From: Defluviitaleaceae bacterium
GTDB lineage: Bacteria > Bacillota > Clostridia > Lachnospirales > WQUN01
NCBI GenBank assembly: GCA_009781765.1
Contig: WQVC01000025.1
Span: forward strand, 1-32,738
Direction of reading: 5' to 3'
Length of the DNA stretch: 32,738 nucleotides
A program made the position numbers and the translations under genes. Below the pieces are notes generated by a model. The model had not been told where the DNA came from. It did not search any database and saw only the letters and a program-made list of their open reading frames with translations. Positions 14,352-22,328 of the stretch are shown here, piece by piece (the first letter of the stretch is position 1; every line of letters begins with the position of its first letter).

Positions 14352-14486
14352 ATGTACGGCGAGCAAGAGTTTATGTGGCGGGCGTTTGCGGTTACGGGCG
14401 ACCCGTTGGCATATTTGGAGTACAGACGCGGCAACAATGATTTTCCCGAAAATCGCCGCCCCAAAGATAAAAAATCAATCGGTTGA
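14352..14486 (+). CDS. yqzL: YqzL-like small protein
   Basis: 44 residues, MYGEQEFMWRAFAVTGDPLA onward. It matches the YqzL family pattern of a short protein with W.LF..TG....YL, and ends in a basic tail. In Bacillus yqzL lies just before recO, as here, which supports the call. The ATG has GGGGGAG six bases upstream. The function of the family is not known to me. Between this gene and recO three palindromic elements have been inserted, so the two may no longer be translated as a unit. Confidence 0.75.
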   Translation: MYGEQEFMWRAFAVTGDPLAYLEYRRGNNDFPENRRPKDKKSIG

Positions 14487-14589
14487 TATAGCAACTTGGT
14501 TTTGCGTAGCCTCAAACTTCGCCGAAAAACGCGCAGAAGCCCGCGATTTTCCGCCTCGTTTTCGGACAACGCAAAATCAAATTGCTCTA
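14487..14589 (-). repeat. GCTTC-loop palindromic element, array unit 1
   Basis: About 103 bp, imperfect palindrome (left end TATAGCAACTTGGTTTTGCG, right end CGCAAAATCAAATTGCTCTA). Read on the minus strand, its core is AAAC-GAGG, stem GGAAAAtCGCG, loop GGCTTCTG, stem CGCGTTTTTC, GCGAA-GTTT, flanked by GA on both sides. It shares this core with the elements at 14588, 14687 and 16389, but has its own outer arms. It begins at the yqzL stop codon and touches the next unit. Confidence 0.8.
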
Positions 14590-14686
14590 ATAATCGCTGT
14601 TTGAAACAATTGAGCGCGAGGCGGAGACCGGAGGCTTCTGTCCGGTTTCCGACGAAGCGCGAGATGATTTCAAACGTGACTTATTA
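14588..14686 (+). repeat. GCTTC-loop palindromic element, array unit 2
   Basis: 99 bp with TAATAA/TTATTA ends and a GTTTGAAA/TTTCAAAC outer stem. Core: GCGC-GAGG, a 10-bp stem with one G-T (CGGAGACCGG/CCGGTTTCCG), loop AGGCTTCTGT, ACGAA-GCGC. It is 84% identical, in reverse orientation, to the element at 16389-16487 (16 differences in 99). Several differences are paired. Confidence 0.85.
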
Positions 14687-14788
14687 TAGCGAACGACCTT
14701 GAGAACCGTGAAGGCGAGGCGGGAAATCGCGGGATTCAGCGCGTTTTCCGACGAAGCCTGAACGGGCTTCTCAAGTACGTTCGCGATA
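14687..14788 (+). repeat. GCTTC-loop palindromic element, array unit 3
   Basis: About 102 bp, following unit 2 without a gap. The outer arms are TAGCGAACG...CTTGAGAA and TTCTCAAG.ACGTTCGCGATA. Core: AGGC-GAGG, stem GGGAAAtCGCG/CGCGTTTTCC, loop GGATTCAG, ACGAA-GCCT. The left end is shared with the short element at 18033. It ends 29 bp before recO. Confidence 0.8.
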
Positions 14789-14817
14789 TGACACCGATTG
14801 ATTTTTTTGGAGGTTTT

Positions 14818-15507
14818 ATGAAAACAATTAAAGCGCGAGGCATTGTACTTAAAGAATACGAAACCGGCGAGTCGGACAAACGGCTTTTGCTTTTATGCAA
14901 GGGACTTGGGCGCGTTATGGTGCGCGCGCGCGGGGCGCGAAAGCCGAAAAGCAAATTTATGGCGTCGGCGCAGATTTTTACATACAGCGATTTTATTTTG
15001 ACGGAGGGCAGGGGATTCATGTCCGTTGCACAGGCCGATGTAATTGAAAGTTTTTACGAACTGCGTACCGACTACGACCGGCTTTGCGCCGCGTATGCAA
15101 TCACGGAAGTATGCGACAAGGCGTTGCGCGAAAGCGAAAACTGCGACGCAATTTTGCTTCTTGTGCTGAAATCGCTTGCGCATTTGACAAAGGAAAAATT
15201 TCCGCCGGCGCAGATTTCCGCCGTATTTATGTTGCGTTTTTTCGATGTTTACGGACTCCGGCCGCGCACGGATGAATGCGTCGTTTGCGGCGCGAAGGAG
15301 ATGCCGGAATTTTTTTTCTGCGAAGAAGGCATTTTATGTGCCGCACACGGAGTTCTGCCGATTTCCCGTTCGGCCGTTGCGGCGATGTCGCATATATTAA
15401 CCGGCAAACTTTCGGAGGCGTTTCAGTTTGAGGCAAACGACAGCTTGCTGGAAGAGTTAAACAAAACCGCAAAGCTCTTGTGGAATTTTCATTTCGGGGT
15501 ATCCTGA
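14818..15507 (+). CDS. recO: DNA repair protein RecO
   Basis: 229 residues, near the usual 230-260. RecO binds SSB-coated single-stranded DNA and loads RecA with RecR in gap repair, and anneals strands. The N-terminal OB fold contains KARGIVLKEYETGESDKRLL and GARKPKSKF. The zinc site in the C-terminal half has CVVCGAKE followed by CEEGILCAAHG. The ATG at 14818 has GGAGG four bases upstream; an earlier ATG at 14788 lacks one and lies in the repeat end. YqzL upstream is conserved context, but era and glyQS, its usual outer neighbours, are not here. Confidence 0.95.
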   Translation: MKTIKARGIVLKEYETGESDKRLLLLCKGLGRVMVRARGARKPKSKFMASAQIFTYSDFILTEGRGFMSVAQADVIESFYELRTDYDRLCAAYAITEVCDKALRESENCDAILLLVLKSLAHLTKEKFPPAQISAVFMLRFFDVYGLRPRTDECVVCGAKEMPEFFFCEEGILCAAHGVLPISRSAVAAMSHILTGKLSEAFQFEANDSLLEELNKTAKLLWNFHFGVS

Positions 15508-16058
15508 TAGAAAAATTCATTCAAGTGGCGTTGAGTTTGCCCTGTCTGCATTGTTGAGGTTTTGCGTCACCGGGAAGTTGTCGCTTCGCCCGAATGTCAC
15601 GACGGTCGATTGCGAAAATATATTCGAAAATGCTAGACGTCGAAATATTATTCGATTACATTAAAGTCAAGCGAAGAGGCAACGCCTTGACGCTGAACAC
15701 ATAACGGAACAATACGTGCATAGTATTAAACCGCCGACCATCGCTGTACGCAATCCATATTTGAGATAGGCTTCATGTCGTGCAAAATGTTGAGACAATA
15801 TGCGAATCAGGAAAAAACAGAAATATACCTTGGAACATATGGACAGGCGCGTTAAATAAAATGCCTCTCTTTGCCGTACAGTCGAAGAGTTTAGCCCTTT
15901 ATTCTTGCTCCCCGTCATTTCTGTTATTTGCTGTTGCCTCCGTGGGTGGGGATTATGTTGGGTATATTTTTTGCCTGTTCCGCATTCGATAAGACCGACG
16001 GGGCAGAACAGGCAAAAAATCCAACACTTGACTTGCAGTTTCTGTGATGGTTTTCAAA
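15508..16058. other. Gene-free stretch after recO
   Basis: No recognisable gene on either strand. At 15549-15719 there is a long imperfect palindrome (ATTGTT...GTTGTCGCTTCGC against GCGAAGAGGCAAC...GGAACAAT) around an AT-rich AATATATTCGAAAATG centre. A minus-strand open frame at 15667-15918 (83 codons) resembles nothing I know and has unusual Cys/Phe-rich composition. No clear terminator follows recO. Confidence 0.4.
15966..16020. repeat. Perfect 15-bp inverted repeat
   Basis: ATTTTTTGCCTGTTC (15966-15980) and its exact complement (16006-16020) flank 25 bp. A-rich rather than T-rich sequence follows on each strand, so it is not a standard terminator. It may be an element end or an operator. 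Confidence 0.6.
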
Positions 16059-16204
16059 AGACCTGTCCTGAAACTGTAATCCTCGCTTCGGGATTGCACG
16101 GCAAAACGCCTCGCTTATTGTCGCCTTGCTTCGCAGAAGCGATTGCCGCCCGCAAGCCGCAGGGCAACCCCGAAACGAAAATTCTGAAATTATAGGACAG
16201 GTCT
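16059..16204. repeat. Palindromic element, family A copy 2
   Basis: 146 bp bounded by AGACCTGTCCT and AGGACAGGTCT. The interior follows the element at 2451-2587 in reverse orientation: CTTCGGGATT, CACGGCAAA, CCTCGCTT, TTGTCG, GCTTCGCA, GCAAGCCG. The terminal repeats differ completely from that copy, but again match each other. Confidence 0.8.
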
Positions 16205-16213
16205 AAAACGAAT

Positions 16214-16261
16214 AAAAGGCTGTTGCGAGAACGTGAATGCGTCCGACAACAGCCTTTTTTT
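16214..16261. terminator. Bidirectional intrinsic terminator
   Basis: AAAAGGCTGTTG (16214-16225) pairs with CAACAGCCTTTT (16247-16258). Seven T follow on the plus strand and TTTTATTCGTTTT on the minus strand. No intact gene ends close to it on either side. Confidence 0.75.
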
Positions 16262-16388
16262 GTGTGGTTATGAATTTGTTTGATTTGATTTTTAAAGCAG
16301 TTCTTTCGGGTTGCGCATAAATGAGCGGTTATACAGCGGCTTCGGCACGGAGCGGTGCGGTCAGTTTCGGGGCGAACCCCTTCCTGTG

Positions 16389-16487
16389 TAATAAATCGCG
16401 TCTGAAATCATTTCGCCCTTCGTCGAGAACCGGCCTGAAGCCGCCGGTTCTCGCCTCGCGCTCAATTGTTTCAGACTACGATTATTA
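16389..16487 (-). repeat. GCTTC-loop palindromic element, solo copy
   Basis: 99 bp, reverse orientation to 14588-14686. Read on the minus strand the outer stem is GTCTGAAA/TTTCAGAC, the inner stem a perfect 10-bp CGAGAACCGG/CCGGTTCTCG, the loop CGGCTTCAGG, and the internal loop GAGG/ACGAAG. Relative to unit 2, the outer stem has a T-A to C-G change and the inner stem a G-C to A-T and an A-T to G-C change, all paired. Confidence 0.85.
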
Positions 16488-16641
16488 CCTGTTGGCAAAC
16501 ACGTCCTTTGGCATAGAAGCGACTGCTCTGTTTCTCGGTTGCAAAGCAAGTATATCCCAAGCGTCATACGAAGATATCCGGAACGGTTCTGAGAAAAATT
16601 CCTGGAATTTTTCCTGGATTTATGCAACCTTGATGACATCA

Positions 16642-16722
16642 AAAAAATCGCGCGTAAGCGCGATTTTTTATAAAAGTTTTCAAGGGGTTCGGGGAAACTT
16701 TTTCAAAAGTTTCCCCGGTCTT
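16642..16722. terminator. Twin hairpins at the lipoprotein 3' end
   Basis: AAAAAATCGCGC-gtaa-GCGCGATTTTTT (16642-16669) has T runs on both strands and can end the minus-strand lipoprotein gene at 16726. GGGGAAACTTT/AAAGTTTCCCC (about 16693-16716) follows, with T7 on the plus strand. Both parts belong to the composite repeat family seen at 796, 24433 and 30807. Confidence 0.65.
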
Positions 16723-16725
16723 TTT

Positions 16726-17889
16726 TTAAAACATATCATTTTCGCCGGTGTTGCTGATAACCACATCGCCGCAAGAAATCCATGCTGCGGCCTCGAGTGC
16801 GCGCCCGAAAAAGCCCATGGGTACGAACAATATTTCGTCAACCAACGCCGGCGGTGCGCCGAGTGAAACTGTATCAAGGCGACCAATCATGTAGGCGTCT
16901 TCGCCTTCTATGAATGCGACGGCGTGCGGGCCTGCGCCGTACATTCCGACCACCGTGCCAAAGCCTTCGCCGGTGACCGTGTAGCCCAGAGCTTCGGCAA
17001 TCGCAACAACGGGAAGCATTACGACTCCGGCTTCGCGGTCGATGAAGGGGCGGGGAGAGTCGATGGCGGTGTCATTTACGACAATTTGAACGGTTTCGGG
17101 GTCAAACATGCTGTCCCACATCATGTCTAAATCTTCTTGGGTCAGTTCCAATCCGCCGCCCCAACCGAAGTCGATTTCGCCGCCGTCAAATCCTGCAAAA
17201 TCATCGTCCGTGAGCCACAGCTCCGGATGCACTGCGCGTTCGAACAGTACCACTATTTTTTCAGAGGATAAAACGGCTATGGTGCGATTTTTTAATTCGT
17301 CAAGCTCGCCATCAAAGAGTGTTCCATCTTGGAAAATGATTTCCGTATCCGCGCCGATTTCAAGCTCATCGCTGAAATGCGTTACGGTTACGTCGGGGTC
17401 GGATACGAGAAGCCGCGCATTGTGTTGCGGCGGATAAATAAGAATCATTGCCGCGCCGACTTCATAAAAACCGGTAACGCTCGCGCCGACTTCAAGTTCG
17501 CCGTCCAAGAAAATCGCGGTGAGCCGGTCTATCGTGAAATTAACTGTGGGGCTGTAGCCGTCGGCATCTTCTTCGCCCTGCACCATTACGGATAACATGT
17601 GCGAAACCGGCTCATCGTCAACCGGCGCCGGCCCCAAGCCCGACATAATTTCTACTACTGTACCGCTGAAGCTCATAAATTCCGGCATAGTCCAAGTCCA
17701 ATCGTCAGAAATTTCGCAACCCGTAAAGTGATTCACTAAGTCGTAGGGTTCGTCTGTGTGCCCGAGAAGCTCAACATCCGAGCCGAGTGCCCCGAGAACT
17801 TGCGTTTCTTCCGGTGTGCAGCCCGTTGAGAAAGCCATCAACCCTGCAACTGCACCGACGGATAAAATTCTTACAAGCCAATTTTTCAT
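16726..17889 (-). CDS. Lipoprotein with copper-amine-oxidase-N-like domain
   Basis: 387 residues with a lipoprotein signal (VAGLMAFSTGC, Cys24). The middle part contains LIYPPQHNARLLV and acidic, glycine-rich stretches. The last ~120 residues have the pattern of the Cu_amine_oxidN1 domain (PF07833): VVNDTAIDSPRPFI, MLPVVAIAEALGYTV, then a second half ending FVPMGFFGRALEAAAW. In Firmicutes this domain is common on surface proteins and has no known enzyme activity. The start at 17889 has GGAGG eight bases upstream and is preferred over the longer frame from 17985, which runs into a repeat. It is divergent from sigE. Confidence 0.85.
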   Translation of the reverse strand: MKNWLVRILSVGAVAGLMAFSTGCTPEETQVLGALGSDVELLGHTDEPYDLVNHFTGCEISDDWTWTMPEFMSFSGTVVEIMSGLGPAPVDDEPVSHMLSVMVQGEEDADGYSPTVNFTIDRLTAIFLDGELEVGASVTGFYEVGAAMILIYPPQHNARLLVSDPDVTVTHFSDELEIGADTEIIFQDGTLFDGELDELKNRTIAVLSSEKIVVLFERAVHPELWLTDDDFAGFDGGEIDFGWGGGLELTQEDLDMMWDSMFDPETVQIVVNDTAIDSPRPFIDREAGVVMLPVVAIAEALGYTVTGEGFGTVVGMYGAGPHAVAFIEGEDAYMIGRLDTVSLGAPPALVDEILFVPMGFFGRALEAAAWISCGDVVISNTGENDMF

Positions 17890-17920
17890 TTTAATTACCT
17901 CCGTTTTTTTTATGCGCATA

Positions 17921-18031
17921 GGAGAGTGTTGAAAAATTACGCTTTCGCATATGCCGCATCTCGTAAAATGACCCGAAGCTGTCATTTTCCTGCGATGCAG
18001 GCACAGCTCAAGCTATTTTTCAACACTCTCC
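17921..18031 (-). repeat. Palindromic element, related GCTTC-loop type
   Basis: 111 bp bounded by GGAGAGTGTTGAAAAAT (17921-17937) and its exact complement (18015-18031). On the minus strand the core is GCATC-GCAG, stem GAAAATGAC, loop AGCTTCGG, stem GTCATTTT, ACGA-GATGC. This has the same order of stem, internal loop with ACGA, stem and GCTTC loop as the 14487-14788 units. It lies in the gap between two divergent genes. Confidence 0.75.
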
Positions 18032-18032
18032 A

Positions 18033-18069
18033 TAGCGAACGCACTTGAGAACCGTGAAGGCGTTCGCTG
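18033..18069 (+). repeat. Short derivative of array unit 3 lacking the core
   Basis: TAGCGAACG.ACTTGAGAACCGTGAAGGCG matches the left end of 14687-14788, then jumps to TTCGCTGCA. The result is an AGCGAACGC/GCGTTCGCT hairpin of about 35 bp. The GCTTC core is deleted. It directly follows the 17921 element, repeating the abutting order seen before recO. Confidence 0.65.
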
Positions 18070-22229: not shown

Positions 22230-22287
22230 TGCGGGGCTTTGCCCCGCACCCCGCCCGCTTTTTGAAAAAAGCGGGGCAAAAACTTTA
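22230..22287. repeat. Composite GC-hairpin intergenic repeat, copy 2
   Basis: GCGGGGC-ttt-GCCCCGC hairpin followed by the 46-bp segment 22242-22287, which differs in one base from 807-852. It sits at the end of the sigE operon. Confidence 0.8.
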
Positions 22288-22290
22288 CTA

Positions 22291-22328
22291 AAAAACCCCT
22301 CGTGTTGTTTAACACGAGGGGTTTTTTT
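22291..22328. terminator. Bidirectional terminator between convergent operons
   Basis: CCCCTCGTGTT (22296-22306) and AACACGAGGGG (22311-22321) form a perfect 11-bp stem with a GTTT loop, with A5 before it and T7 after it. It serves the plus-strand sigE operon and the minus-strand RDD gene, which ends at 22337. Confidence 0.92.

Follow-up and report, generated by a model that had tools for sequence, protein, structure and literature searches.

The window analysed here is a 32,738-nucleotide stretch of DNA, contig WQVC01000025.1 (C25) in a draft genome of a Defluviitaleaceae bacterium (assembly GCA_009781765.1; 2.94 Mb, 154 contigs, 94% complete). It contains hairpins of about 100 bp, and we interpret these as copies of a palindromic mobile element that is non-autonomous, resembles a miniature inverted-repeat transposable element (MITE), exists in several subfamilies and is moved in trans; we put the probability of this interpretation at about 0.78. 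It is supported directly by multiple insertions, by empty sites, by copies that lie in frame within genes, by a fold that is kept across lineages and by a pattern of decay without an RNA-type bias. An initial annotation of the window had recognized a hairpin family, which is correct, but had overlooked that its members are insertions and that some of them are in frame within genes.

The folds of the hairpins located in that annotation beat those of dinucleotide shuffles (z from -4.9 to -8.3, with none of 200 shuffles as good). A covariance model, R1, was built from aligned copies in the same genome with differing outer arms, including those in the window, and four of the window elements fit it at 76.9 to 91.2 bits (E 2e-17 to 6e-21), as expected of one shared family. 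The elements at 14588 and 16389 are exactly 84% alike, differing at 16 of 99 bases, and the three paired substitutions described between them can be read in their alignment. Further copies had been anticipated, and R1 finds 143 in the genome; the element at 14588 has 40 matches there. Sorted by outer arm, the copies fall into subfamilies A (TAATAATCGC; 14588 and 16389), B (TAGAGCAATTTG; 14487) and D (TAGCGAACG; 14687), and a fourth arm type, E, is a D-like variant. Some copies are chimeric, with a left arm of B and a right arm of D, and an identical extra hairpin of about 27 nt is present in the apical loop of both B-armed and D-armed copies (C23:24005, C36:27565, C19:31676 and C107:6921), pointing to recombination between subfamilies. 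The palindrome at 17921, previously listed as a more distant member, does not belong to the family, since R1 gives it only 12.4 bits (E 0.54). It is an independent family, here called F, with a similar-looking loop, because elsewhere in the genome the same palindrome (GGAGAGTGTTGAAAAAT...) interrupts D copies of the 14687 type (at L257 and L263); the resemblance of its loop (AGCTTCGG, GGTTTCAG) to the core loop is only suggestive of kinship. We note that in the window and at L257 and L263 alike, family F, with the loop GGTTTCAG, has inserted in or beside D elements.

The insertions can be examined against their own empty sites. Most A copies, including that at 16389, sit within a larger dispersed repeat, bg1, of which at least 34 other copies have no element; the empty site reads TTTGCCAT^CTCAGGAAGG and the filled site TTTGCCAT-CAGG-(A element)-CTCAGGAAGG. 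Empty D sites are found in three repeats and read CTTA^GAAAA, CTTA^CTTAAAA, CTTACAATGC and GCAAG^CAAAAG; the CTTA sites have TA on each side once filled, and the D element at 14687 is also flanked by TA (14685-14686 and 14787-14788). A copies at two unrelated sites have TCA on each flank. The net insertion is usually 102 nt, with a duplication of 2-3 bp such as TA or CA, and at nested sites with empty counterparts the duplication is TA, CA or CAA. In the window, three abutting elements (14487-14786) separate the yqzL-like gene from recO, whereas in sister species (L247, L248 and L249) the two genes overlap, the yqzL-like homologue running over the recO start.

Some of the repeats that host the elements have features of their own. 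The bg1-type repeat, found at some 70 places besides that in the window (L002-L060), is about 0.6 kb long and consists of conserved blocks with variable tandem units between them, of the kinds GGAAAAATTCC and GTACCACC; many copies lie at contig ends, and none of those searched has an Rfam match above the gathering score. Two others, bg4 (L101, L088, L102) and bg3 (L137, L084), are longer branched palindromes of about 240-250 bp with ends TATAGTGAATCA...TGATTCACTATA and a D element inside, and element-free forms are present at C57:14682-14829, L018 and L073.

Within genes, eight clear copies were recognized among the 96 with enough flank for examination. They lie in seven genes, and each of the eight adds 102 nt, or 34 codons, and leaves the frame intact; among these 96 copies we found no clear case of a gene broken by an insertion in its middle. 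The genes encode a dihydroorotase, HydF, an RluB/RsuA-type pseudouridine synthase, BioY, YlbJ, a DASS/sodium:sulfate symporter and a membrane protein. Open frames run through several copies, and family searches place these in real proteins. Alignment of the dihydroorotase with PDB 3mpg covers query residues 2-266 and 300-343, between which the chain passes from 268 to 270, and the 33-residue insert consists of the element alone; the alignments of RluB and HydF likewise break at the element. Peptides have been inserted into enzymes of central metabolism, dihydroorotase among them. The membrane protein, of 522 residues and with no family match, carries two copies in opposite orientations (C66:875-942 and C66:1452-1519; L073). 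A ninth and weaker case lies close to the C-terminus of a serine recombinase, and the tail of an AcpS-like frame is changed by a B copy located at its end. On each strand of every subfamily at least one frame is open, and we propose that gene-breaking insertions are purged, so that the surviving genic copies would be those in the single open phase per strand.

All members follow one folded plan: an outer arm, GA opposite GA, a 4-bp stem, GA opposite GAA, an inner stem and an 8-nt loop, GGCTTCAG. The internal loop, previously drawn as GAGG/ACGAA, is real but is better delimited as GA/GAA, as the inner G of GAGG pairs with the C of ACGAA in 68 of 69 distinct sequences; the position after this G-C pair is likewise paired where its bases are C-G or U-A. 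The covariation noted earlier in the stems proves to be strong across the subfamilies of this genome and their relatives. In 38 such sequences 93.1% of cells are paired, and both partners have changed in 20 of the 21 pairs; across lineages the number of such pairs is 20-21 of 21. Covariation scores 0.667 in these sequences, compared with 0.201 when shuffled and at most 0.12 with slid partners. Pair counts are biased towards the model, to which the alignment had been fitted, although this is unlikely to be the source of the signal given how large the effect is and how low the slid controls are. The fixed positions in the same 38 sequences (A17 100%, G72 97%, T38 97%, A73 92%, G36 89% and T39 89%) are all unpaired or loop-adjacent. 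Tandem sheared G.A pairs can arise from opposed GA dinucleotides, in DNA as well as in RNA.

Other genera also have hairpins that follow this plan, with stems that differ greatly, which favours the earlier reading. Of 295 genomes in the order, 29 gave matches at E <= 1e-4, and these represent at least five of its families; 17 candidates were scored per genome, and copy numbers in relatives are lower bounds. In a survey of the phylum, none of 397 other genomes matched at 1e-5, this genome being alone among the 398 drawn, which bounds the false-positive rate. The named relatives are Defluviitaleaceae metagenome bins, from termite guts on our reading of the isolate labels. No match was obtained in viral contigs by exact-pattern scans or in phages and plasmids by blastn. 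We found no relevant literature on palindromes in the Defluviitaleaceae, and as far as we have searched the element is undescribed.

The initial annotation proposed selection for a folded RNA or single-stranded DNA; constraint on the fold is upheld between lineages, but selection on single copies as RNA is not. Distinct single changes in the stems of three subfamilies comprise 18 to G.T and 18 to A.C, and in subfamily D divergence is 0.0615 in stems and 0.0646 in loops; neither the excess of G-U over A-C nor the slower change of stems than loops that would mark a cis-acting RNA is seen within subfamilies. Because decay has no G-U bias and stems and loops change at the same pace, single copies are probably not regulatory RNAs. 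It is thus highly improbable that the copies individually function as structured RNAs (regulators, processing sites or terminators) selected by the host, even though the stems covary, the loops are fixed across genera and intergenic copies often lie between co-directional genes; copies occur in both orientations relative to neighbouring genes (9 and 9) and within coding sequence on either strand, and no Rfam family matches at its gathering score, in agreement with the earlier view (weak matches, E 0.04-0.46, are judged to be chance). Copies look dead on arrival, from which we infer that structural constraint must act between lineages, on those copies that beget new ones. A different origin for the covariation might be read from three of the 143 copies (C31:28107, C91:4713 and C3:61679), in which one arm has been rewritten as the exact complement of the other and the GA/GAA loop is lost; judging from these sequences, the hairpin at times forms in DNA and can serve as its own template. 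These copies, together with compensatory double changes within subfamily D (9 cells), would fit an account in which covariation is a by-product of quasi-palindrome correction, with template switching taking place in a DNA hairpin and structure not being selected. We consider this doubtful, as such correction would erase the internal loops, whereas almost every lineage has kept GA/GA and GA/GAA, as the conservation of A17, G72 and A73 attests.

For a MITE-like element moved in trans, we envisage that an enzyme supplied from elsewhere would carry copies into gene junctions, other repeats and genes, and that the fold, with its tandem GA mismatches and GCTTC loop, is most probably kept to serve mobilization, where it would be recognized in the form of a DNA cruciform, of single-stranded DNA or of RNA. 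A Y1 transposase had been suggested, but no PF01797 match is present in the genome, while a control search matched 5 of 14 genomes. Movement of a repetitive extragenic palindromic (REP)-like element by a Y1 HUH transposase (the REP-associated tyrosine transposase, RAYT, or IS200/IS605) would suit an imperfect hairpin with fixed unpaired bases, a high copy number and nested insertions with little duplication; it is nevertheless distinctly improbable given the missing gene, a length of about 100 nt rather than 20-40, the absence of a GTAG/GGAG foot and the short duplications that are seen. We also think it unlikely, if less so, that the element is a MITE of an IS630/IS5-like DDE transposon with TA-type duplication, whose parent is lost or unassembled and whose long inverted repeats make the palindrome. 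Ends of the form TA-TAGYGA do recur in several palindromes of the genome, TA is duplicated in bg2, and DDE_3 genes are present in several sister species, but this genome has no DDE_3 or DDE_Tnp_1 gene, an inverted-repeat scan around the IS630 loci of relatives did not find these ends, the duplication at bg3 is CA and not TA, and plain inverted repeats fail to explain fixed internal mismatches within changing stems. On the first two of these grounds IS630 was rejected as the parent. The single rve gene, located on C43, carries a frameshift and has no matching ends, and 14 orphan D arms, examined as possible parts of an autonomous copy, are deletions, palindrome-interrupted elements or contig ends. 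The terminal TATAGYGA common to several other palindromes of the genome suggests that one mobilizer may serve them all; the enzyme that moves the element may since have been lost. Less likely than not, and put forward tentatively, is a class of mobile palindromes recognized by fold and not by sequence, in which the fixed GA mismatches and GCTTC loop, set within freely changing stems, would be the signal for a hairpin-specific recombinase or reverse transcriptase and copies would be tolerated in frame within enzymes.

Several points weigh against a MITE-like element moved in trans. Neither an autonomous partner nor any transposase was found in the draft genome, which has no DDE_3 (IS630-type) or DDE_Tnp_1 (IS4/IS5-type) genes; target duplications are short and have no uniform length across 40 D sites; template switching between the arms of a DNA hairpin could account for some of the covariation, as in the three rewritten copies; and recognition of the fold at mobilization is itself inferred, the mechanism resting on constraint that acts upon source copies. 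Draft bins often lose multicopy transposons, however, and the absence of a transposase is therefore weak evidence, as the parent may simply be missing.

Among known systems, the Rickettsia palindromic elements (RPEs) are about 100-150 bp long, fall into several families and are found both between genes and in frame within unrelated genes, to which they add a peptide (PMC10969869). The present element, a palindrome of about 100 bp with 143 copies, some in frame in unrelated genes, is likened to them as a kind, by description; it differs in belonging to another phylum, in having most of its roughly 140 copies outside genes, in using both orientations within genes, and in a fixed mismatch-and-loop core with covarying stems that is common to several genera. 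No enzyme is known to mobilize RPEs. Rickettsia is the main source of known in-frame palindromic elements, whose mode of movement is unsolved; with about 140 copies here, empty sites alongside filled ones in one genome, and a fold shared across genera, there are many natural mutants from which to learn which bases matter. Like a MITE, the element is shorter than 500 bp (TAGCGAACG...CGTTCGCGA, 100 bp) and has terminal inverted repeats and no transposase gene. ERIC, RUP, Correia and other palindromic bacterial MITEs are likewise short, high-copy families with terminal inverted repeats, nesting and stable hairpins (PMC10969869), whereas here a folded core and not a family-specific sequence is conserved across genera, and no parent insertion sequence has been identified. 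With the REP/bacterial interspersed mosaic elements moved by RAYT (Y1) and with IS200/IS605 ends it shares an imperfect hairpin whose fixed unpaired bases are a likely recognition signal, but it is three times as long and lacks both a Y1 gene and the foot tetranucleotide. Integron attC sites, too, are DNA that folds, with stems that vary around structural features that do not, but gene cassettes are absent here and RYYYAAC/GTTRRRY boxes are not seen. The element is thus a mobile palindrome of the RPE/MITE kind, distinguished by in-frame genic copies outside Rickettsia and by conservation of fold instead of sequence.

Elements and neighbouring genes in the window
Feature	Position	Strand	Details
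yqzL-like small gene	14352..14486	+	MYGEQEFMWRAFAVTGDPLAYLEY...; start approximate; TGA stop directly adjoins first element
Element, B subfamily	14487..14587	-	arms TAGAGCAATTTGATTTTGCG.../...CGCAAAACCAAGTTGCTATA; core 14504-14571, 76.9 bits; fold z -4.87
Element, A subfamily	14588..14686	+	TAATAATCGC...TTATTA; core 14604-14670, 81.0 bits; fold z -4.86
Element, D subfamily	14687..14786	+	TAGCGAACG...CGTTCGCGA; core 14702-14769, 91.2 bits; fold z -6.74
recO	14818..15507	+	59-72% identity to matches in six sister species
Larger dispersed repeat bg1	16328..16618	-	carries an A element
Element, A subfamily, within bg1 repeat	16389..16487	-	core 16405-16471, 79.0 bits
Separate palindromic family F	17921..18031	-	fold z -8.31
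D-element deletion derivative	18033..18069	+	TAGCGAACGCACTTGAGAACCGTGAAGGCGTTCGCTG; D-arm pattern match 18034-18057

The recO gene likely starts at the ATG that follows GGAGG, as in its homologues. The window also contains two pairs of unrelated dispersed repeats, one direct (795-859 and 22230-22294, 91% identical) and one inverted (2511-2552 and 16097-16138, 83%).

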